DNA of 64,000 nt, taken from positions 1 to 64,000 of the forward strand of contig NZ_BCQV01000012.1 of the NCBI RefSeq assembly GCF_001552255.1. Reading direction: 5' to 3'. The notes beneath the pieces are model-generated. The model searched no databases. It was not told where the DNA came from and was given only the letters and a program-made list of their open reading frames with translations. Within the stretch, counting starts at the first letter, position 1. Every line of letters starts with the position of its first letter. Both the position numbers and the translations under genes were made by a program. This document shows positions 40,313-57,905 of the stretch, in pieces. Origin of the DNA: Alicyclobacillus shizuokensis NBRC 103103 (lineage in GTDB: Bacteria > Bacillota > Bacilli > Alicyclobacillales > Alicyclobacillaceae).

Positions 40313-40567
40313 ACGATACCGCCTTCCATCTATACGAGTTTTATGATGAGTTTCCATCGTAAAGCCTTGAGAGTAAGAACCCTCAAGTGACTCTCGCCTG
40401 AATATCCTTCAAGACCAGAGAACATCCGGTCAGGTATTAAGAAACATCCATTTAGGTATACATGAACCCTATATTATCATTATACATTCATTATATAATC
40501 GAGAATACAGGAAACTTTATCGAGCATGTCGAATTCACCTCCAGCGAAACCAAGGAGATGACGAACT

Positions 40568-41617
40568 GTGTCGAGGATCGATGAAGCACGTGACGTGTTT
40601 TCCCGGATTGAACAGGCCTGGTCGGATGGGGAACGGACGGCTCTGTTGACGATTACCCAAGTGAAAGGCTCCGCGTACCGCCTTCCTGGTGCCAAAATGA
40701 TGATGACAGAAAAAGGCAAGATGCTCGGCACACTCAGTGGCGGTTGCTTGGAATCCGACTTGTATGGATGGGCGGAAAAAGCCATGGAAGAAGACGAACC
40801 CCGTCTTGTCAATTACGACCTCAGTGAAAACGAACTGTGGTCTCTCGGAATTGGCTGCAAAGGAACACTCGAAGTCGCCATCTTTCCCATTCACGCTGAA
40901 GACCCATTTTGGCAATCTGTGCGAAAAGCCGTCGCCCAAGACCGTGCCATCTCATTAGCCATTGAATTACCGACCGGTGCCCGCGCCGTCTTTGATGGGA
41001 CGAATCCGCTTTCCGGAGATATGGACAACCTCCCAGAGGCCGTCGTACGGCAGCTGACAAGCCGTGTCTGGAGCCGTACGAGGGCGGAAGTGGCCATTGT
41101 CGACGACCGCCGCTTTTATATCGACACGATGCGGCCGAACGAACGGCTGATCCTGTGCGGCGCAGGTCATGACACGGTGCCGGTGGCAGCGCTCGCTGCC
41201 CAGTGCGGCTTTCGAGTGTCGGTTCTTGATCCCCGTAAAGAGTTTAATGGGGTTAAGCGCTTTCCTAACGCCGAACACCTGGTGGTTGAACCCGACCAAG
41301 CAGATCCCGCGCAACTCACAAATAGTTGGTGGTTGATCATGAACCACCTGCAGATGCGCGACGAGGCCGCGCTTCGCCTAGCCTTGCAAGCACAACCCAA
41401 GTTCATCGGCGTGCTCGGCCCCTTGTCGCGCACGGTCGAGATGCTGGACCATATTGGCGCCAACATGAGCAGCGGGCCGATTCACGCCCCGGTTGGACTG
41501 GACGTGGGCGCGGAAACGATTGACGAAGTTGCAGTGTCCATCGTGTCCGAATTGCTCGCAGCGCGCTCCGCGCGGTCGGGAGGACCGCTCCACGGACGGG
41601 AAAACATTCACTCTTGA
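40568..41617 (+). CDS. XdhC/CoxI-family molybdenum cofactor maturation protein
   Basis: A 349-residue XdhC-family protein. The N-terminal CoxI domain has LLTITQVKGSAYRLPGAKMMMTEKG and LGTLSGGCLESDL; the C-terminal Rossmann domain has LILCGAGHDTVPVAALAAQCGFRVSVLDPR and a final FIGVLGPLSRT. GTG is the start, with AAGGAGATGA upstream. Such proteins bind molybdenum cofactor, insert it (and sulfur) into xanthine/CO dehydrogenases, and are required for active enzyme. It is convergent with coxE, separated by four bases, and so closes the CO dehydrogenase locus. Confidence 0.9.
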   Translation: MSRIDEARDVFSRIEQAWSDGERTALLTITQVKGSAYRLPGAKMMMTEKGKMLGTLSGGCLESDLYGWAEKAMEEDEPRLVNYDLSENELWSLGIGCKGTLEVAIFPIHAEDPFWQSVRKAVAQDRAISLAIELPTGARAVFDGTNPLSGDMDNLPEAVVRQLTSRVWSRTRAEVAIVDDRRFYIDTMRPNERLILCGAGHDTVPVAALAAQCGFRVSVLDPRKEFNGVKRFPNAEHLVVEPDQADPAQLTNSWWLIMNHLQMRDEAALRLALQAQPKFIGVLGPLSRTVEMLDHIGANMSSGPIHAPVGLDVGAETIDEVAVSIVSELLAARSARSGGPLHGRENIHS

Positions 41618-41621
41618 GAGC

Positions 41622-42755
41622 TCAGGGCGCTGCGGATTGCAGTGCCCCGCTCAACACTGCCTTTTTCCATGTTCTCACATCATGGACATCGACGAACGCG
41701 TCAAGGTAAGGCAAGGCCATCGACATACCGACCGATGTTGGCTCATATCCGGGTTCGCCGAGCAGCGGATTCAACCAAACCACTCGACCAACCCGGGCAG
41801 CCAAGTCGCGCATGGAAGTGTGCATTTGCTCCGGATGCCCGGCGTCGAATCCATCCGATACAATGAGGACGCACGTATGCCGCTGCAAAAGACCTGGATA
41901 CCGGCGCAAGAGCTGTTCCAACGCACTGCCAATGCGAGTGCCTCCCCTCAGCCCCGGCAACTCGGCGTGCGTGATGCCCGCAACGCCTTTGCGCGCGATG
42001 AGAGAGGTTACTCGCAACAGGCGCGTTGAAAACAGAAAGATTTGGGTGCGTGCCCGGGCCCGCGTGAATGACCAGGCGAGCGATGTGACAAAAGGTGCAT
42101 ACGGCTTCATAGAACCGGATATGTCCATCACCAGGACAACACGCGGCTTGTCGGGACGGTGTCGCCGCATCTTCAGCACAAACGGCTCCCCTGCATGACG
42201 CATAGCGTGGCGCATGGTCTGACGGAGATCAAGTTTCTCTCTGCCTCGGGGCCGCCATTTGCGCCCACGCGGCGCATCCATGGTGCGCACCGCCAAGCGG
42301 GTCAACTGAACGACATCCTTCAACACCTGTTCGTCCGCCCGCAATGCATAGCGCTCGCCATCGTTGGGATGATACCCAGCGAGAAAGCCCTGCACTGTAT
42401 CAACCGGAGGGTGCTCCGCCTGATCACCGCCGCTGCCACCTTCGCGGTCCGCCCAATCATCCGGCTGCAGACGGCGCTTTTCCTGCAATTGCACGCCCCG
42501 GTCCCCAAAATATCGCTCGAACAGACTCGGAAAGATGCCCCACTCTGCGGGGGTCCGCGAATAGATGGAGCGAAAGGCGCTGCAGACCTCTTCCATACGG
42601 GTCAGGTCCAATTCCGCCAAGGCAGAAATGGCTATCAACGTTTCCGGAACGCCCGCCCGAAATCCATGTTGTCTCAACCAAGGCGCAAAATCCTTAACCT
42701 GCCGCACGATATCGCCCGTCAAGCGGTTCATCTCGGCCGCCGTCAGGCGTTCCAT
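41622..42755 (-). CDS. coxE: CoxE-like von Willebrand factor A protein
   Basis: A 377-residue protein of the CoxE family. The N-terminal part is helical; the VWA domain has a complete MIDAS start VLVMDISGSMKPYAPFV and later TRIGSALEQLLRRYP and LIVSDGFDAGHPEQ. It overlaps the coxD gene by 13 bases. In Oligotropha, CoxD and CoxE cooperate as a MoxR-type ATPase plus VWA pair in maturation of the [CuSMoO2] active site of CO dehydrogenase, and that role is inferred here. Confidence 0.9.
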   Translation of the reverse strand: MERLTAAEMNRLTGDIVRQVKDFAPWLRQHGFRAGVPETLIAISALAELDLTRMEEVCSAFRSIYSRTPAEWGIFPSLFERYFGDRGVQLQEKRRLQPDDWADREGGSGGDQAEHPPVDTVQGFLAGYHPNDGERYALRADEQVLKDVVQLTRLAVRTMDAPRGRKWRPRGREKLDLRQTMRHAMRHAGEPFVLKMRRHRPDKPRVVLVMDISGSMKPYAPFVTSLAWSFTRARARTQIFLFSTRLLRVTSLIARKGVAGITHAELPGLRGGTRIGSALEQLLRRYPGLLQRHTCVLIVSDGFDAGHPEQMHTSMRDLAARVGRVVWLNPLLGEPGYEPTSVGMSMALPYLDAFVDVHDVRTWKKAVLSGALQSAAP

Positions 42756-43603
42756 AACACGTCGAGTCCCCTCTCCCGCACGAAGTTCAAGTCCTCTTCC
42801 GTCTTCAGCAAACAGCCGAGAGTGAGTCGCACCACTTCTTCGTCCAACTCCTGCGCCCCCAACTCATGCAGCGCCTGTGCAAAATCGATGGACTCCGCCA
42901 ATCCGGGCGGCTTGAGCAGTGACAACTTGCGCAGCCGTCGTACGCCGCGTGCGATTTGTTTCGCAAGTTCCGATGCTATCCGCGGCACATGCAGCGAAAT
43001 GATGGCCGCCTCTTGTTCAGGGGACGGGTAATCGACCCAAACGTAGAGGCAACGGCGCCGCAAAGCGTCCGACAAGTCGCGTGTACGATTGGACGTCAAC
43101 ATGACAATCGGTGGCTTTTCGGCGCGAAAGGTTCCCATCTCCGGAATGGTAATTTGGAATTCCGAGAGGAATTCCAAGAGCAGCGCCTCGAATTCCTCGT
43201 CAGCCCTATCGACCTCGTCAATCAGCAGCACAGGCGCTGGCTTTTCGCGCAGCGCGCGCAAAAGCGGCCGTTCAATGAGAAACGGCTCACTGTACAGCGC
43301 CGCCTGATTCACGACACCGTCGGCAAACGCTGTGCGCGCCGTCAGCAACTGCTTTGGGTAATCCCAATCGTACAACGCCTGACTCGCATCTAAGCCTTCA
43401 TAGCATTGCAAGCGCACCAGGTCCACGGAACGAACGGTGGCAACCGCTTTCGCCAGTGCTGTTTTCCCTACACCCGCAGGCCCTTCCAACAATAGAGGTC
43501 GGGCCAGCCGCTGTGCCAGATGCAGTACAGTAGCCAACCCTTCCTCGACGACATAGTGAGCGCGATGCAATTCTTCCTGCAGTCGGCACACCTGTTCATT
43601 CAT
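42743..43603 (-). CDS. coxD: CoxD-like MoxR AAA+ ATPase
   Basis: A 286-residue AAA+ ATPase. Walker A is LEGPAGVGKTALAKAVA, Walker B VLLIDEVDRADEEFEALLLEFLSE, and sensor-1 PPIVMLTSNRTRDLSDALRRRC. The ATG at 43603 follows GGAGGCTGTCCGG; the longer ORF upstream is not family-like. MoxR ATPases act with VWA proteins as chaperones; CoxD is needed for sulfuration/copper insertion into the CO dehydrogenase cofactor. It is flanked by coxG and coxE in the same operon. Confidence 0.92.
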   Translation of the reverse strand: MNEQVCRLQEELHRAHYVVEEGLATVLHLAQRLARPLLLEGPAGVGKTALAKAVATVRSVDLVRLQCYEGLDASQALYDWDYPKQLLTARTAFADGVVNQAALYSEPFLIERPLLRALREKPAPVLLIDEVDRADEEFEALLLEFLSEFQITIPEMGTFRAEKPPIVMLTSNRTRDLSDALRRRCLYVWVDYPSPEQEAAIISLHVPRIASELAKQIARGVRRLRKLSLLKPPGLAESIDFAQALHELGAQELDEEVVRLTLGCLLKTEEDLNFVRERGLDVLWNA

Positions 43604-43628
43604 CCGGACAGCCTCCACCTGACGTCCT

Positions 43629-44117
43629 TCAACCTTGGTCCGCTGTTTTATCCGTTGCGGCGACCTCTTCATCTGGCAAGGCGAGCAAGGCATTCTTCAG
43701 ATTGGCAAATACCTTCTCCGTAATCTTCCGCGCTTCGTTATCAATCAGTCGCCCGCCCAGACTTGCGATGGGTCCACTGATCACCGCGTCGCAACGCCAT
43801 TTTAAGAGGGTCCCTCCATCAACGTCGCCGAGTTCCATTTGCGCTTTCATATCAACTCCGCTGCCCATTCCACCGCCGCGAATCGACAGGGAGGCCGCCT
43901 TACCCGGTTCCGTCACGGTCAATTCACTGGTGAGGTCGAACTTGCCTCGCACCGGCCCCACGCCGACCTTCACAAGACTGCGAAAACGGGTCTCACTCTC
44001 TACGTTCAATTCAATCAAGTCGGGAATACAAGTTCCCATTTTATGCGGATCTGTAACGAACGCCCAGATTTTCTCCCGCGGCTGCTCAATCGTAAATTCT
44101 CCTTCGTACGTACGCAT
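43629..44117 (-). CDS. coxG: CoxG-like SRPBCC protein
   Basis: A 162-residue START/SRPBCC-fold protein. The N-terminus YEGEFTIEQPREKIWAFVTDPHKMGTCIPDL and the central LTVTEPGKAASLSIRGGGMGSGVDMKAQMEL match the CO dehydrogenase subunit G family. GAGGAGGCAAGACC precedes the ATG at 44117. CoxG recruits CO dehydrogenase to the cytoplasmic membrane and the quinone pool, as shown in mycobacteria; here it lies between the XdhC-YHS gene and coxD. The typical C-terminal membrane anchor is absent, the protein ending in a polar tail. Confidence 0.88.
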   Translation of the reverse strand: MRTYEGEFTIEQPREKIWAFVTDPHKMGTCIPDLIELNVESETRFRSLVKVGVGPVRGKFDLTSELTVTEPGKAASLSIRGGGMGSGVDMKAQMELGDVDGGTLLKWRCDAVISGPIASLGGRLIDNEARKITEKVFANLKNALLALPDEEVAATDKTADQG

Positions 44118-44244
44118 GGTCTTGCCTCCTCTGTTGTTCATGCCAATTTGCTAAGGCCCCTTCAGCCGCCAACCATCGACAGGACGGAGGTACTGTCCCC
44201 GTGCCTTTTGTGTGAGTACACATCCAGATCCGCATGGCGCATGG

Positions 44245-45323: not shown

Positions 45324-47675
45324 TTACTCGGTGATACCGTGCTCCCTCAAGATGTTCCATACCTTCCATGGAAAAATCGGCATATCGATGTGTTCCACAC
45401 CAAGCGGCGACAGGGCATCCACCACCGCGTTGACAAAGGCTGCGGGTGAGCCGACGTTCGGTGACTCACCAACGCCCTTGGCGCCGATTGGATGGTGTGG
45501 CGACGGCGTAACCGTCCGATCCGTTTCCCAATGCGGAGTGTCTGCCGACGTGGGAACCAGGTAGTCCATCAGGTTCGGCGCCAGACAGTTGCCATCCGCG
45601 TCATACGGAATGTCTTGCATGAACGCAATCGCAAACCCTTCGGTCACCCCTCCGTGCACCTGTCCTTCGACAACCATGGGATTAATCACGTTGCCGCAAT
45701 CATCAACGGCCAAGAAACGCCGCACCTTGACAGCACCCGTTCCCTTGTCGATATCCACCACCGCGATGTACGCCCCGTTAGGGAAGGTGAGGTTCGGCGG
45801 ATTGTAGTAGTACGTCGCTTCCAGGCCCGGTTCCATGCCCTCAGGTACATTTGTGTAGGCGGCGAACGCCACGTCCTTCATCGACACGGCCCGACCTGGC
45901 AAGCCTTTTGCGGAGAAGGCGACCCCGTCCCAGACCACGTCGTCTTCGCCGACCTCCAGCAGATGCGCCGCGATTTTGCGAGCTTTCTCGCGAATCCTGC
46001 GCGCGCAGAGGGCCGCCGCGCCGCCGGCCGTCGGCGTCGAGCGGCTGGCGTACGTGCCCAGCCCGTAGGGAGCTGTGTCGGTATCGCCTTCCTCAATCAA
46101 CACGTCATCCGCACTGAGTCCGAGTTCTTCAGCGATGATCTGGGCAAAAGTCGTTTCGTGTCCCTGGCCCTGGTGCCGTACCCCAAGCCGCGCAATCACT
46201 TTACCGGTCGGATGGAAGCGAATCTGCGCGCTGTCGAACATCTTGATGCCGACGATGTCGAACTGATGAGCCGGGCCAGCACCGACCACCTCTGTGAAGG
46301 TCGAGATGCCAATCCCCATCAATTCTCCACGCGCCCGCTTTTCCGCCTGTTCCTTGCGCAGCTCTTCGTACCCAATGCGCTCCAGCGCGAGTTTCAGCGT
46401 CTTTTCATAGTCCCCGCTGTCGTAGACCCATCCGGTCGGCGAGTGATACGGGAACTGCTCCTTACGGATGAAGTTTTTCAGACGCAGTTCAGCCGGATCC
46501 ATCTTCAGCCGCTGGGCCAAGATGTTCATGACTCGTTCGATGAGATACGATGCCTCTGTGACACGGAAGGAACAGCGGTAGGCTACACCGCCCGGAGCCT
46601 TGTTCGTATATACCCCGTCCACCTCAACGAACGCAGCCTTGAAGTCATACGACCCAGTCACAATGCTGAACAACCCAGCCGGGAATTTGGACGGATCGGC
46701 AGCCGCGTCGAACGCACCGTGATCGGCAATCGTCTTTACACGCAGGGCGAGCACCTTGCCGTCCTCACGCGCCGCAATCTCCGCAGTCATATGGTAGTCG
46801 CGAGCAAAATGGGTACTGGCGATGTTTTCGGTGCGGGTTTCAATCCACTTTACAGGGACCCCCAATTTCAAGGATGCAACCGTCGCAATCACGTAACCGG
46901 GGTACACAGGGACCTTATTCCCGAAACCACCGCCGACATCGGGTGAAATGACGTGAATTTGATGTTCTGGAAGCCCGGACACCATCGCCAGTACGGTCCG
47001 GTGGACGTGCGGCGCCTGCGAAGTGACATACAGCGTTAACTTATTCCGGGCTGCATCCCAGTCCGACACGCACCCACAAGGTTCAAGGGGCGCAGGATGG
47101 ACGCGTGGAAAGCGCACATTCTGCTTGACGACGACCGGCGCGTCGCGGAACAGCGCTTCCGTTTCCTCTCTGTCCCCTGCCTCCCAGTGGAAGATGTGGT
47201 TCGACTTTTTCTCTTTGTCTTCGCGAAGAATCGGAGCGTCCGGCTCAAGTGCCTGGAACGGGTCCGCTACGACCGGCAAGGGTTCGTAATCGACTTCAAT
47301 CAGTTGCGCCGCGTCCTCTGCTTGAGCGCGCGTCTCAGCGACGACCGCCGCGACTTCCTGGTACTGAAACAGGACCTTGCCGGTGGCCATCACCATCTGC
47401 TGGTCTCCTGCCAGCGTCGGCATCCAGGCGAGGTTCATCTCGGCCAAGTCTTCTCCAGTAAGGACCAGCTTGACCCCCGGTGCGGCAAGTGCCGCAGACG
47501 TGTCAATCCGGCGAATGCGCGCGTGCGCGTACGGACTGCGCACGATGCAGAGATAGAGCATATTCGGCAACATCACGTCATCCACGTAATGGCCCTTGCC
47601 CCGAATCAGGCGCGGGTCCTCCTTGCGCCCAATCGGTTTACCCATGGGCCGCAACTCAGTCTGTGGAAGTGCCAC
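45324..47675 (-). CDS. coxL: Aerobic CO dehydrogenase large subunit, form I (CoxL)
   Basis: A 783-residue molybdenum-binding subunit of the xanthine-oxidase family. The form I active-site loop AYRCSFR is present at residues 365-371, with Cys368 corresponding to the Cys that binds copper in the Oligotropha enzyme; form II proteins have AYRGAGR instead. Other cofactor motifs are SPDVGGGFGNK, HQGQGHETTFAQI and the C-terminal GAKGVGESPNVGSPAAFVNA with the catalytic Glu. The GTG start follows AGGAGGCGG and overlaps coxS by 20 bases. It oxidises CO to CO2 and passes electrons via CoxS and CoxM to the respiratory chain. Confidence 0.95.
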   Translation of the reverse strand: MALPQTELRPMGKPIGRKEDPRLIRGKGHYVDDVMLPNMLYLCIVRSPYAHARIRRIDTSAALAAPGVKLVLTGEDLAEMNLAWMPTLAGDQQMVMATGKVLFQYQEVAAVVAETRAQAEDAAQLIEVDYEPLPVVADPFQALEPDAPILREDKEKKSNHIFHWEAGDREETEALFRDAPVVVKQNVRFPRVHPAPLEPCGCVSDWDAARNKLTLYVTSQAPHVHRTVLAMVSGLPEHQIHVISPDVGGGFGNKVPVYPGYVIATVASLKLGVPVKWIETRTENIASTHFARDYHMTAEIAAREDGKVLALRVKTIADHGAFDAAADPSKFPAGLFSIVTGSYDFKAAFVEVDGVYTNKAPGGVAYRCSFRVTEASYLIERVMNILAQRLKMDPAELRLKNFIRKEQFPYHSPTGWVYDSGDYEKTLKLALERIGYEELRKEQAEKRARGELMGIGISTFTEVVGAGPAHQFDIVGIKMFDSAQIRFHPTGKVIARLGVRHQGQGHETTFAQIIAEELGLSADDVLIEEGDTDTAPYGLGTYASRSTPTAGGAAALCARRIREKARKIAAHLLEVGEDDVVWDGVAFSAKGLPGRAVSMKDVAFAAYTNVPEGMEPGLEATYYYNPPNLTFPNGAYIAVVDIDKGTGAVKVRRFLAVDDCGNVINPMVVEGQVHGGVTEGFAIAFMQDIPYDADGNCLAPNLMDYLVPTSADTPHWETDRTVTPSPHHPIGAKGVGESPNVGSPAAFVNAVVDALSPLGVEHIDMPIFPWKVWNILREHGITE

Positions 47676-48171
47676 TGGCTGCCGCCTCCTCTATTGCTTC
47701 TTGGTTTTCACCCGCCATCTTGCGAGCAGCATTTTGAACGGCTTTCACGATATTCATATACCCTGTGCAGCGACAGATATTTCCTGACAGCGCCTCGCGA
47801 ATTTCTACGTCAGTAGGTGCCGGATTCGTCTGTAACAACCCGTAGGCCGCCATCAGCATGCCAGGGGTGCAGTAGCCGCATTGCAGAGCATGATCCTCCC
47901 AAAACGCACTCTGCAACGGGTGCAATTGACCATTTGATTCAAGCCCTTCGACGGTCATCACCTCGTGGCCGTCCGCCTGCACAGCCAACACCGTGCACGA
48001 CTTGATGGGCTTCCCGTCGAACAGCACCGTGCACGCACCGCAGGTGGTCGTATCGCAACCAATATGCGTTCCTGTCAGATTCAGTTGTTCACGCAGGAAA
48101 TAAGCCAACAGCGTACGCGGTTCAACGTCCGCTTCGTACAGGCGTCCGTTGACCTTTACTCGGATGTTCAT
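47656..48171 (-). CDS. coxS: CO dehydrogenase small iron-sulfur subunit (CoxS)
   Basis: A 171-residue two-cluster protein. The plant-type 2Fe-2S motif is CDTTTCGACTVLFDGKPIKSC near residues 39-60, and the C-terminal four-helix cluster has CGYCTPGMLMAAYGLL and GNICRCTGY. It transfers electrons from the molybdenum site to FAD in CoxM. Its ATG overlaps the coxM stop by four bases (ATGA), so the two are translationally coupled. Confidence 0.95.
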   Translation of the reverse strand: MNIRVKVNGRLYEADVEPRTLLAYFLREQLNLTGTHIGCDTTTCGACTVLFDGKPIKSCTVLAVQADGHEVMTVEGLESNGQLHPLQSAFWEDHALQCGYCTPGMLMAAYGLLQTNPAPTDVEIREALSGNICRCTGYMNIVKAVQNAARKMAGENQEAIEEAAASGTSTD

Positions 48172-49055
48172 TCATCCCCCACCCTTCCATGCAACTCTTC
48201 CGCGATCTCGCGAAGCGCGCGCGCAGCGAAAACACGCAACAGGTCGCGCTTGTAGGCGGCACTGCCGCGCAGGTCATCCGCGGGATCGGCGTCTTCCGGC
48301 ACCAGCCGCGACACGGTCGCAATCGTCTCCTCTGTGATGGGTTGTCCGATGAGCGCCTCCTCCGCCTTGGTCGCCCGCAGAGGAATCGGTCCACAGGCGC
48401 CGATGCCGATACCGCCCTCGGCAACGCGGCCTTCACTGTCGAGCACGATGTGCACAGCCAGCGCGGCGATGGCGAAATCGCCGGCCCTGCGCTCAAGTTT
48501 CATGTAACGGGCGGCGACGGGCCCGCCAGGCGTCGGGACATGCACCGCGACCGCGAGTTCGTTTTCATTCAGCGATGTCGCAAACGTGTCTACGAAGAAC
48601 TCGTCAATGGGAATCAGTCGGTTTCCCTCCGTCCCCTGCACCTCCACCTCGGCGCGAAGAGCTATCATCGCCGCGCCCCAATCCGAGCCTGGATCTGCGT
48701 GAACGAGTGAGCCGCAAATGGTGCCCCGGTTGCGAATTGGAGGGTCCGCAATCCAGCGGGCAGTGCGGGACAAAAGCGGATATTTGTCATCGAGTTCTGA
48801 TGCATGTTCCAGTTCCGCGTGGCGTACCAAAGCCCCGATGCGCAGTTTCCCATCGGCCTCGCGCCAACCCTTCAAATCCTGGATGCCGTTCACATCGATG
48901 AGTACAGCCGGCGCCGCGATGCGAAGCTTCATCATCGGCAACAGGCTCTGGCCACCCGCCAACACCTTGCTGTCGTAACCGTACTCAGTCATGAGACGCA
49001 CCGCCTCGTCGACTGATGTCGGTACTTCGTACTTGAACGCATTGGGAAACACCAT
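48168..49055 (-). CDS. coxM: CO dehydrogenase medium FAD subunit (CoxM)
   Basis: A 295-residue FAD-binding subunit. The FAD motifs are VLAGGQSLLPMMKLR and NRGTICGSLVHADPGSDW, slightly different from the canonical AGGHSLLP and TIGGNxxHADP. The ATG at 49055 has AAAGGGGGCCTT before it; the ORF runs 51 codons further upstream through the promoter. It accepts electrons from CoxS and delivers them to quinone. First gene of the cox operon (order M-S-L), divergent from the sensor kinase. Confidence 0.93.
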   Translation of the reverse strand: MVFPNAFKYEVPTSVDEAVRLMTEYGYDSKVLAGGQSLLPMMKLRIAAPAVLIDVNGIQDLKGWREADGKLRIGALVRHAELEHASELDDKYPLLSRTARWIADPPIRNRGTICGSLVHADPGSDWGAAMIALRAEVEVQGTEGNRLIPIDEFFVDTFATSLNENELAVAVHVPTPGGPVAARYMKLERRAGDFAIAALAVHIVLDSEGRVAEGGIGIGACGPIPLRATKAEEALIGQPITEETIATVSRLVPEDADPADDLRGSAAYKRDLLRVFAARALREIAEELHGRVGDE

Positions 49056-49181: not shown

Positions 49182-49208
49182 ATTATAAAATAGCTGATAG
49201 ACACGCAA
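49182..49208 (-). promoter_or_regulatory. Predicted cox operon promoter
   Basis: On the minus strand, TATAAT (49187-49182) is preceded 15 bases upstream by TTGCGT (49208-49203). The short spacer and imperfect -35 element suggest a promoter that needs an activator. The leader to coxM would be about 120 bases. Confidence 0.5.
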
Positions 49209-49209
49209 T

Positions 49210-49225
49210 ACACCCGATCGGGTGT
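49210..49225. promoter_or_regulatory. Perfect 16-bp palindrome upstream of the cox promoter
   Basis: ACACCCGATCGGGTGT is a perfect palindrome directly next to the weak -35 box, its centre about 42 bp upstream of the predicted cox start. This is where a class II activator usually binds. It is a good candidate site for the divergently encoded NarL-type regulator. A T-run (TTTTT) follows it on the plus strand, so hairpin formation in RNA is an alternative. Confidence 0.6.
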
Positions 49226-49279
49226 TTTTCGATACCGGGTCCTCCCTTTACTATCCTTGGAAAGGACGGGAGACAGCGG

Positions 49280-50431
49280 ATGAGCCAACCCACGACAAAT
49301 CAAGCCGAAGTCTTGCGGATTTTGTCGGAAGCGCTGGAACGCCTGCAGCCGTGGATGGAGGAAGGCCTTGAACCGCTGTTGCAGGCTGTCGTGGACCACG
49401 CGCGTACATTGGTCAACGCTGCGTTCGCCGGGATCATCATTACAGAACCAAAGAATCCGTCCACCATTCGATACTTTAAAGTTTCCGGATGGGACGGAAA
49501 GCCCGTGGAATTTCCGAAAGGACACGGGATGTACTTCGTACCCGTCAAAACCGGTGACTCGCTGCACGTCGATTCCATCTCCGGACATCCACTGTCTGTC
49601 GGCATGCCGACAGGCCATCCACCCGTCGAGGCGTTGTTGACCATCCCACTGAAATACCATGGACAGGCGATTGGTTGCATCTTTTTCGGCCAGCCACCCA
49701 AGACAGGATCCTTCACCAAAAGCGACGAAGACATGATGAATGGATTTGCTTCGCTGTGTTCCATTTTCATCTCATGGTGCGACCAACAAAATGAAAACTG
49801 TTTCCGCATCTTAACGGAAGAACGGCAACGAATTGCGGAAGAATTACACGATTCACTGTCGCAGACCCTGTTTGCCGTGGTACGCGAGATTGACCGCTTG
49901 GAACGGCTGACGGTCGCAGAGAAGAGTGAGCTGCAGGCGCGTACCGCTCGATTGCGTGAATTGACGGAACAATGCCAATCCGAACTTCGAGCCATTTTGT
50001 TTCGCCTCATGGACGATGAGGCTCGACCCAACGTCACCGCCTTGACTCATCTCGTACAAGAATTCGAGCGAATCAGCGGGATTTCCACAAAACTCATCAC
50101 ACACGGTGATGGTGACTTCAGCCGATTGAGCCTCCCCATTCGTCAAACCATACTCAAAATCGTCGCCGAATCTCTGACCAATGTGTTCCGCCACGCCAAC
50201 AGCCCAGTGGCCATCGTCCACCTGCTTGTAGAAACAGACGCAGCGACCATCACGGTACAGGACGCCGGGGACGGCATTTCAGACGAAGCCCTGCGTCTCA
50301 TCACCCATCCAACCGGGCACTTTGGCTTGCATTCGATAGCGCGTTCCGTCGCCGTTCTCAACGGGCAGTTGGACATTTTTCGCAATGAGGATGGAGGGAC
50401 AACCGTGCGCTGCACGTTTCCCATTCGCTAA
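49280..50431 (+). CDS. DevS-like GAF-domain sensor histidine kinase
   Basis: A 383-residue soluble kinase with no membrane segments. Residues about 30-165 form one GAF domain; 175-383 is the NarL-type transmitter with H-box RIAEELHDSLSQTLF (His190), N-box ESLTNVFRHANSP, and glycine boxes DAGDGI and GHFGLHSIA. The segment ISGHPLSVGMPTGHPPVEAL resembles the heme-GAF of mycobacterial DevS/DosT; His113 aligns with the DevS heme ligand His149, and Phe135 falls at the DevS Tyr171 position 22 residues later. ATG follows GGGAGACAGCGG. It is divergent from coxM and 100 bp upstream of its response regulator. Heme binding is an inference. Confidence 0.85.
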   Translation: MSQPTTNQAEVLRILSEALERLQPWMEEGLEPLLQAVVDHARTLVNAAFAGIIITEPKNPSTIRYFKVSGWDGKPVEFPKGHGMYFVPVKTGDSLHVDSISGHPLSVGMPTGHPPVEALLTIPLKYHGQAIGCIFFGQPPKTGSFTKSDEDMMNGFASLCSIFISWCDQQNENCFRILTEERQRIAEELHDSLSQTLFAVVREIDRLERLTVAEKSELQARTARLRELTEQCQSELRAILFRLMDDEARPNVTALTHLVQEFERISGISTKLITHGDGDFSRLSLPIRQTILKIVAESLTNVFRHANSPVAIVHLLVETDAATITVQDAGDGISDEALRLITHPTGHFGLHSIARSVAVLNGQLDIFRNEDGGTTVRCTFPIR

Positions 50432-50531
50432 GGCTCGATTGAACCAGGGCATGAAATGACACCCGATTCCGTTCATTTTGCCCCGATTCGACACCACAGC
50501 ACAGTCGGCGATATGCAAGGAGGGGCTGACC

Positions 50532-51164
50532 TTGACAGAGAGCATCGTTATTGTTGACGACCATGAACTGGTTCGCATTGGTTTACAGACGTTGCTCAGC
50601 GAGCACGGATTGAACTTGGTTGGACAGGCAAGCACCGGAGCGGAAGGACTCGATCTCATTCAATCTCTGCAACCCGATCTCGCTCTGATTGACGTGCGAT
50701 TGCCCGACATGAGCGGCATTGAGTTGTGTAAGTCGGTGCGGGAGACAAACACGTCCACGCGCCTCGCCATCCTCACTTCGTCGATGGACAAGAATGTCGT
50801 ACACGCCTGTCTCCAGACAGGGGTTCAGGGATATCTGCTCAAGGATATGCCCGGAGAAGAGTTATTCAAATCCATACAAAATATTTTGAATGGTAAATCT
50901 GTCCTCGATCCGACCGTAACAGAGTACGTCCTCCATTGGATTGAATCACCGAGACAAGGCGAATCCGGCAAAGACGCTCTCGATCTACGGGACGTGGAGA
51001 TCCTGCGCCTCATGGCCCAAGGACGCACCAACCAAGAAATCGGCAAGCACCTCCACCTGTCGGAAAACACCGTCAAGTCCATTATCAATGAAATTTATCG
51101 TCGGCTCGGCGTCAAAAGCCGCGTAGAAGCCGTAATGGAAGCGCACCAGCGGCGACTTCTATAA
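50532..51164 (+). CDS. NarL/DevR-like response regulator
   Basis: A 210-residue regulator. The receiver domain has the acidic pocket IVDDHELV, the phospho-acceptor in ALIDVRLPDMSGIELC, a Thr/Ser in AILTSS and the switch lysine in GYLLKDMPG. The LuxR helix-turn-helix reads RDVEILRLMAQGRTNQEIGKHLHLSENTVKSIINEIYRRLGVKSR. The TTG at 50532 is chosen since AAGGAGGGG lies six bases upstream; the earlier ATG in frame lacks a site. DVRLPDMSGIELC is close to the DevR sequence. It probably receives phosphate from the adjacent kinase and acts on the cox promoter. Confidence 0.9.
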   Translation: MTESIVIVDDHELVRIGLQTLLSEHGLNLVGQASTGAEGLDLIQSLQPDLALIDVRLPDMSGIELCKSVRETNTSTRLAILTSSMDKNVVHACLQTGVQGYLLKDMPGEELFKSIQNILNGKSVLDPTVTEYVLHWIESPRQGESGKDALDLRDVEILRLMAQGRTNQEIGKHLHLSENTVKSIINEIYRRLGVKSRVEAVMEAHQRRLL

Positions 51165-57499: not shown

Positions 57500-57793
57500 T
57501 TAGCGGCTTTTGCCGCCACTCTTGTGCCCGTGGCCGCCGCTCTTGTGCTCATGGCCGCCGCTCTTGTGCTCATGGCCGCCGCTCTTGTGCTCATGGCCGC
57601 CACTCTTGTGCTCATGGCCGCCACTCTTGTGCTCATGGCCGCCGCTCTTGTGCCCATGGCCGCCACTCTTGTGCCCATGGCCGCCGCTTTTGGTCTGGTG
57701 ACCCTGTTTCTCCAATCCCCACAGCCGTTGCAACTCCTCACGGACGATCTCTCGGATCGTCTCCTGCAAACGGCTTTCCCGCCGAGTCGCCAT
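57500..57793 (-). CDS. CotG-like repetitive spore coat protein
   Basis: A 97-residue protein. Residues 1-33 form a charged helix (SRLQETIREIVREELQRLWGLE); residues 36-91 are eight perfect heptads SGGHGHK or SGGHEHK, ending SGGKSR. AGGAGGTACCCCA precedes the ATG at 57793. B. subtilis CotG is likewise made of short Ser/Lys/His-rich repeats, is divergent from cotH, and is phosphorylated by CotH; the arrangement here is the same although the repeat sequence differs. The Ser of each heptad would be the phosphorylation target. Metal binding by the histidines is an additional possibility. Confidence 0.78.
   Translation of the reverse strand: MATRRESRLQETIREIVREELQRLWGLEKQGHQTKSGGHGHKSGGHGHKSGGHEHKSGGHEHKSGGHEHKSGGHEHKSGGHEHKSGGHGHKSGGKSR
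57521..57688 (-). repeat. Eight 21-bp coding tandem repeats
   Basis: Eight in-frame copies of a 21-bp unit encode the heptad SGGHxHK. Copies differ mainly by GGC/GAG at one codon (HGH at both ends, HEH in the central five) and by a synonymous Gly position. Such arrays change copy number by slippage. Confidence 0.9.
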
Positions 57794-57905
57794 TGGGGTA
57801 CCTCCTACATACAATTTGGTACCACACTATGTCACGGAGACACGGGGGGAATGGGCAGCTGCGGGCGAATGTGTGCCCTATGTGTACGCCATGGAGGTGT
57901 TCAAG

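Follow-up and report, generated by a model that had tools for sequence, protein, structure and literature searches.

The locus described here raises the question whether a two-component system encoded beside the genes of a CO dehydrogenase (CODH) senses CO and switches these genes on. It lies in the window, by which we mean the whole stretch of 64,000 nucleotides that was analysed. The CO sensors of CODH genes CooA, RcoM and CoxC are single-protein factors (PMC11347149, PMC11942997). In the literature searched, which was covered only in part, we found no two-component system that controls cox; the CODH regulators described there were CooA, RcoM, CoxC and CutR. The searched passages of the Thermomicrobium roseum genome paper do not discuss the kinase-regulator pair of that organism. 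An initial annotation of our locus had read the pair as a heme-GAF kinase that senses CO or O2, with its regulator, and that drives CO oxidation. This reading is supported by the present analysis. It has been strengthened because the pair is also linked to cooS, because phenylalanine in place of the distal tyrosine of DosS is confined to CODH-linked kinases and because an operator is found at both cox promoters. Heme, the CO signal and activation by CO are still inferred.

The kinase-regulator pair adjoins a complete form I CODH cluster

The minus strand of the window carries a complete form I CODH cluster consisting of coxM, coxS, coxL, an XdhC-family gene, coxG, coxD and coxE (Table 1). CoxL reaches 1268 bits on TIGR02416 (cut-off 991) and contains the active-site motif AYRCSFR. 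Together with the coxMSL order, this bears out the earlier assignment of the adjoining enzyme to form I. xdhC1 on the plus strand converges on the far end of the cluster. The CODH cluster has two transcription units, one represented by coxM and the other by xdhC1.

The pair had been described as divergent from coxM, and this is correct: coxM starts at 49055 and the intervening gap measures 224 bp. Pfam places the GAF domain of the kinase at residues 30-164, HisKA_3 at 181-244 and HATPase_c at 290-382. The GAF domain has no other match among the proteins of the source genome; three weak matches cover the kinase core instead. For the regulator, the open reading frame 50532-51164 with a TTG start is the most likely call. 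Its description as DevR-like needs a small qualification. DevR is among the best PDB matches, ranking second with an E-value of 1.5e-32, but NarL is closer (1.1e-37).

Table 1. Positions of the features discussed, as numbered in the window
Feature	Position	Strand	Basis or remark
Composite operator GGTATTAAGAAACATCCATTTAGGTAT upstream of xdhC1, second perfect copy	40433..40459	+	
xdhC1, XdhC-family maturation gene, second predicted target operon	40568..41617	+	
coxE, VWA protein	41622..42755	-	position and sequence
coxD, MoxR-type ATPase	42743..43693	-	position and sequence
coxG	43629..44141	-	position and sequence
XdhC-family maturation protein, C-terminal YHS-like segment	44245..45258	-	YHS judged by eye
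coxL, form I	45324..47675	-	AYRCSFR motif, TIGR02416
coxS, 2Fe-2S subunit	47656..48171	-	ORF
coxM, FAD subunit	48168..49055	-	ORF
TATAAT, -10 element of the coxM promoter	49182..49187	-	22 nt from palindrome
Composite operator GGTATCGAAAAACACCCGATCGGGTGT upstream of coxM	49210..49236	-	16-bp palindrome 49210-49225
Soluble sensor histidine kinase, 383 aa	49280..50431	+	ORF and Pfam: one GAF, HisKA_3, HATPase_c
GAF domain, residues 30-164, DosS/DosT GAF-A-like	49367..49771	+	sequence match, predicted fold
Kinase residues 51, 85, 88	49430-49432, 49532-49534, 49541-49543		
His113, equivalent in position to DosS His149 (heme ligand)	49616..49618	+	alignment; invariant in A3
Phe135, equivalent in position to DosS Tyr171 (distal)	49682..49684	+	alignment
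His190, predicted phospho-accepting histidine (EELHDSLSQT)	49847..49849	+	Pfam HisKA_3 match; assigned by motif
NarL/DevR-family response regulator, REC and GerE HTH, predicted phospho-acceptor Asp54	50532..51164	+	Pfam, PDB matches

The sensor domain resembles the heme-binding GAF-A of DosS and DosT

The best PDB match of the GAF domain (phmmer) is GAF-A of DevS, also named DosS (2y79, E 2.6e-13), followed by GAF-A of DosT (2vzw, 2.7e-9). A structure model was built from 32 aligned GAFs, leaving out the T. roseum plasmid sequence, and reached a mean pLDDT of 88.3 and a pTM of 0.84. Its top 17 Foldseek matches, i.e. the nearest solved structures, are all heme GAF-A chains of DosS or DosT including the CO-bound 4ynr, with TM values of 0.66-0.70 by query length. 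The resemblance to the DevS/DosT heme GAF that had been noticed at the outset is thus found in the sequence matches and in the predicted fold.

In the printed phmmer alignment, His113 falls on the HPP histidine that serves as heme ligand in DevS, and Phe135, 22 residues further on, sits where DevS has Tyr171. Both assignments had been made before and were upheld, the former as a position only and not as ligation. A location of His113 in the heme pocket is predicted from the alignment; the coordinates of the model were not inspected. Glu87 and His89, the remainder of the distal hydrogen-bond network of DevS, align with Ile53 and Thr55 of the kinase.

The pair persists beside cox in two Bacillota classes

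The expected conservation of the pair beside coxMSL in relatives was found across two Bacillota classes. Among 59 genomes of the source organism's order, nine encode CoxL with at least 83% identity and eight of these also the kinase. In these eight the pair lies beside form I coxMSL, always divergently; in the ninth, the contig ends inside coxM. A second Bacillota class (154 genomes) has CoxL with at least 73% identity in 26 genomes, and the pair is linked in about 22 of them, namely 21 matches at E ≤1e-40 and genome G563 with a divergent GAF. Only a fragment of the regulator remains in a 23rd cox genome, and G152, G113 and G582 have form I cox clusters but lack the kinase-regulator pair. These three pair-less clusters (L077, L078 and L079) are all of one family, f17. 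The linkage is retained across varying arrangements of the pair (divergent, co-directional downstream or 5 kb away). Fisher tests gave p values of about 4e-9 and 1e-21, which overstate independence because the genomes are related.

The sampling comprises two groups of Bacillota and a single plasmid from Thermomicrobium; outside Bacillota, only plasmids were searched. The megaplasmid of T. roseum encodes a distant GAF kinase, a regulator, a nucleotidyltransferase and a peptidase, and then coxMSL; Gly takes the place of Tyr171 in this kinase. At the same locus (L053 13893-16389), the kinase/regulator genes overlap the nucleotidyltransferase gene, which is possibly MocA-like.

G495 is the sole genome of the second class that has the kinase but no form I CoxL. 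There (L073 5339-10082, G495:C74), a Phe-type kinase and the regulator are immediately followed by a CooF-like 4Fe-4S protein and CooS. The latter scores 621 bits on TIGR01702 (cut-off 478) and its best PDB match is a Ni-CODH (6elq). CO is what the Mo-Cu and the Ni-Fe CO dehydrogenases have in common, the two enzymes being unrelated. The linkage to cooS rests on this one genome only.

Phenylalanine at the Tyr171 place sets CODH-linked kinases apart

Phe occupies the Tyr171 place in 30 of the 31 CODH-linked Bacillota kinases, i.e. in 29 of 30 linked to cox and in the one linked to cooS. The histidine is also kept in 30/31, and L080, the sole kinase without Phe, is the one that has lost it. Other DevS-like GAF kinases of the second class (e.g. 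L031, L032 and L082) belong to the same GAF subfamily and have His at the ligand place. In contrast to the CODH-linked kinases, these controls have Tyr in 70/70 cases, with the HPP His in 69/70. The 70 control GAFs comprise the 30 best matches fetched with a Tyr-type query and 40 from further down the match list, and neither coxL nor cooS was found in the flanks of the 40 control loci for which longer flanks were available. Gly51, Phe/Tyr85 and Pro88 also separate the CODH-linked from the other DevS-like GAFs without exception. Since every Phe-type kinase falls on one side of a tree branch with support of 97/90, the replacement of Tyr by Phe may represent one evolutionary change and not thirty.

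The HPP histidine alone was ruled out as proof of heme binding and CO sensing. It is common to 69 of the 70 unlinked GAFs and therefore marks the subfamily, not CO sensing.

Both cox promoters carry the same composite operator

The palindrome in the divergent gap reads ACACCCGATCGGGTGT and is common to Alicyclobacillaceae; related palindromes occupy the same place in genera of the second class (ATACCTAASTAGGTAT, ATACCTTTTTRGGTAT). Of 26 divergent gaps, 12 contain AYACCYNNNNRGGTRT exactly and 16 with at most one mismatch, compared with 0.007 and 0.11 in shuffles. These counts are optimistic because the related sequences counted here also served to derive the pattern. At about a dozen loci, a -10-like hexamer starts exactly 22 nt downstream of the palindrome. 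This spacing puts the palindrome centre at -42.5, the position of a class II activator.

Across the 3.6 Mb genome, GGTAT-N6-AYAYCCNNTYNGGTRT has exactly two copies without mismatch, one in front of coxM and one in front of xdhC1; one-mismatch copies were absent from the genome and the reversed control gave none. With only two composite copies, a small regulon is predicted, namely the CODH cluster itself. The xdhC1 site is kept in relatives with some changes. No match with fewer than three mismatches was detected in the co-directional cox loci (L068-L072), the f17 loci, T. roseum and the cooS locus. At the cox locus of G563 (L080 3201-4394), whose GAF has neither the His nor the Phe, the operator-like GTACCCGGTTTGGTAT still precedes coxM.

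The DosR box, with the core GGGACTWWAGTCCC, was considered for the cox genes and rejected. Its one weak match lies inside coxL and is below chance expectation, and a different palindrome is conserved.

Discussion

Overall, we favour, without great certainty, a CO-responsive two-component system built on a heme-GAF and dedicated to the activation of cox, in which heme, CO as the ligand, a kinase that is ON with CO and binding of the operator are all inferred. For signalling that depends on CO, the evidence is confined to genomic linkage. In such a system, the GAF domain would hold heme through His113, in a distal pocket from which the tyrosine network that discriminates O2 in DosS has been lost. 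Binding of CO to the heme would alter autophosphorylation at His190 and the phosphate would pass to Asp54 of the NarL-family regulator. The regulator would then bind GGTAT-N6-AYAYCCNNTYNGGTRT at about -42.5 and act as class II activator of coxM and xdhC1.

The weak point of this mechanism is the response of the kinase. The Tyr of DosS forms a bond with O2 and labels the O2-bound state as off. The Y171F variant of DosS does not discriminate between the gases: with any of O2, CO and NO bound it is off, only the gas-free state is on, and CO and O2 are bound more tightly, with Kd values of 3.33 and 0.12 µM (PMC4082495). If this logic were copied, cox would be shut off under CO or air. If the regulator acts as activator, the response must therefore have been re-tuned compared to DosS; Pro88, Phe/Tyr85 and Ile53 are candidates for the re-tuning residues. 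Should the Y171F logic hold after all, we would be dealing with an O2-type sensor or with a regulator that represses. We regard it as an even call whether the Phe-type kinases form a clade that lost the distal tyrosine and thereby changed from a sensor of O2, NO and CO into a dedicated CO switch for CODH genes, beside both unrelated CO dehydrogenases and possibly across phyla.

The heme-GAF could instead sense O2 or redox and turn on cox when oxygen or energy is limiting, so that CO would not be the physiological signal. In favour of this, O2, NO, CO and redox all act on the nearest characterised relatives, T. roseum increases cox when nutrients are limiting (PMC6776052), and DosS Y171F, which has a higher affinity for O2, shows activity only in the unliganded state (PMC4082495). 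We still consider this unlikely, given that the O2-bonding Tyr is lost only in CODH-linked kinases, that both unrelated CO dehydrogenases are linked to the pair, and that the two composite operators of the genome both lie at the cox cluster, unlike in a broad hypoxia regulon. Our confidence is also low that the GAF domain has no heme, owes its likeness to DosS to ancestry and senses another small molecule such as a metabolite or cofactor precursor of Mo-CODH assembly, which we judge a rather poor prospect. Such a role would agree with the presence of the HPP His in the whole subfamily, with a maturation gene, xdhC1, as second target and with the position of L080 beside cox despite its missing His. 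However, the nearest structures are all heme-GAFs, the His is retained in all but one of the CODH-linked Bacillota kinases, and linkage extends to a Ni-CODH, an enzyme without Mo cofactor.

It is hardly credible that shared descent alone has placed the pair here and that it has other targets. Related genomes do have synteny blocks in common, and the sampling of two Bacillota groups and a single Thermomicrobium plasmid is narrow. Against this, the linkage outlasts changes in arrangement, coxM and xdhC1 have the operator in common, and the pair is also found beside cooS.

The CO-responsive system that we propose is similar to M. tuberculosis DosS (DevS)/DosT-DosR (DevR) in its GAF-A fold, the position of the His ligand, the combination of HisKA_3 and HATPase_c and the NarL-family partner. 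Unlike DosS and DosT with their tandem GAF-A/GAF-B, the kinase has one GAF (residues 30-164). It has Phe at the distal Tyr (Tyr171/Tyr169) and Ile/Thr for Glu87/His89. The operator also differs, with no DosR box at the targets, and the genes are located beside CODH genes and do not control dormancy. RcoM (PAS-LytTR), CooA (CRP/FNR) and CoxC (MHYT-LytTR) have the same predicted job, CO control of CODH genes, but are one-protein transcription factors, whereas kinase and regulator are separate here. The earlier statement that known CODH regulators are different therefore stands: the sensor is not fused to a DNA-binding domain, and GAF/HisKA_3/HATPase and REC/GerE are found in two proteins. CutR also regulates aerobic CODH genes, those of the mycobacterial CO-DH, but it is LysR-type, of an unrelated family and without a kinase.

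If our proposal is true, CO sensing by a kinase and a regulator in Firmicutes is a solution separate from the single-protein factors, and it would explain how thermophilic and acid-loving CO oxidisers, which form a large group, control their CODH. The approximately 30 Phe and 70 Tyr variants of one domain, sorted by their neighbourhood, provide a natural test of the CO/O2 discrimination of DosS, for which the coxM promoter is a ready reporter.

Two minor observations were made in passing. The coxE gene of Alicyclobacillus herbarius (L006 2347-3475) is in two overlapping pieces, possibly due to a frameshift or an assembly error. At 57500-57814, the window contains a small histidine-rich open reading frame with tandem HKSGGHGHKSGG-type repeats.
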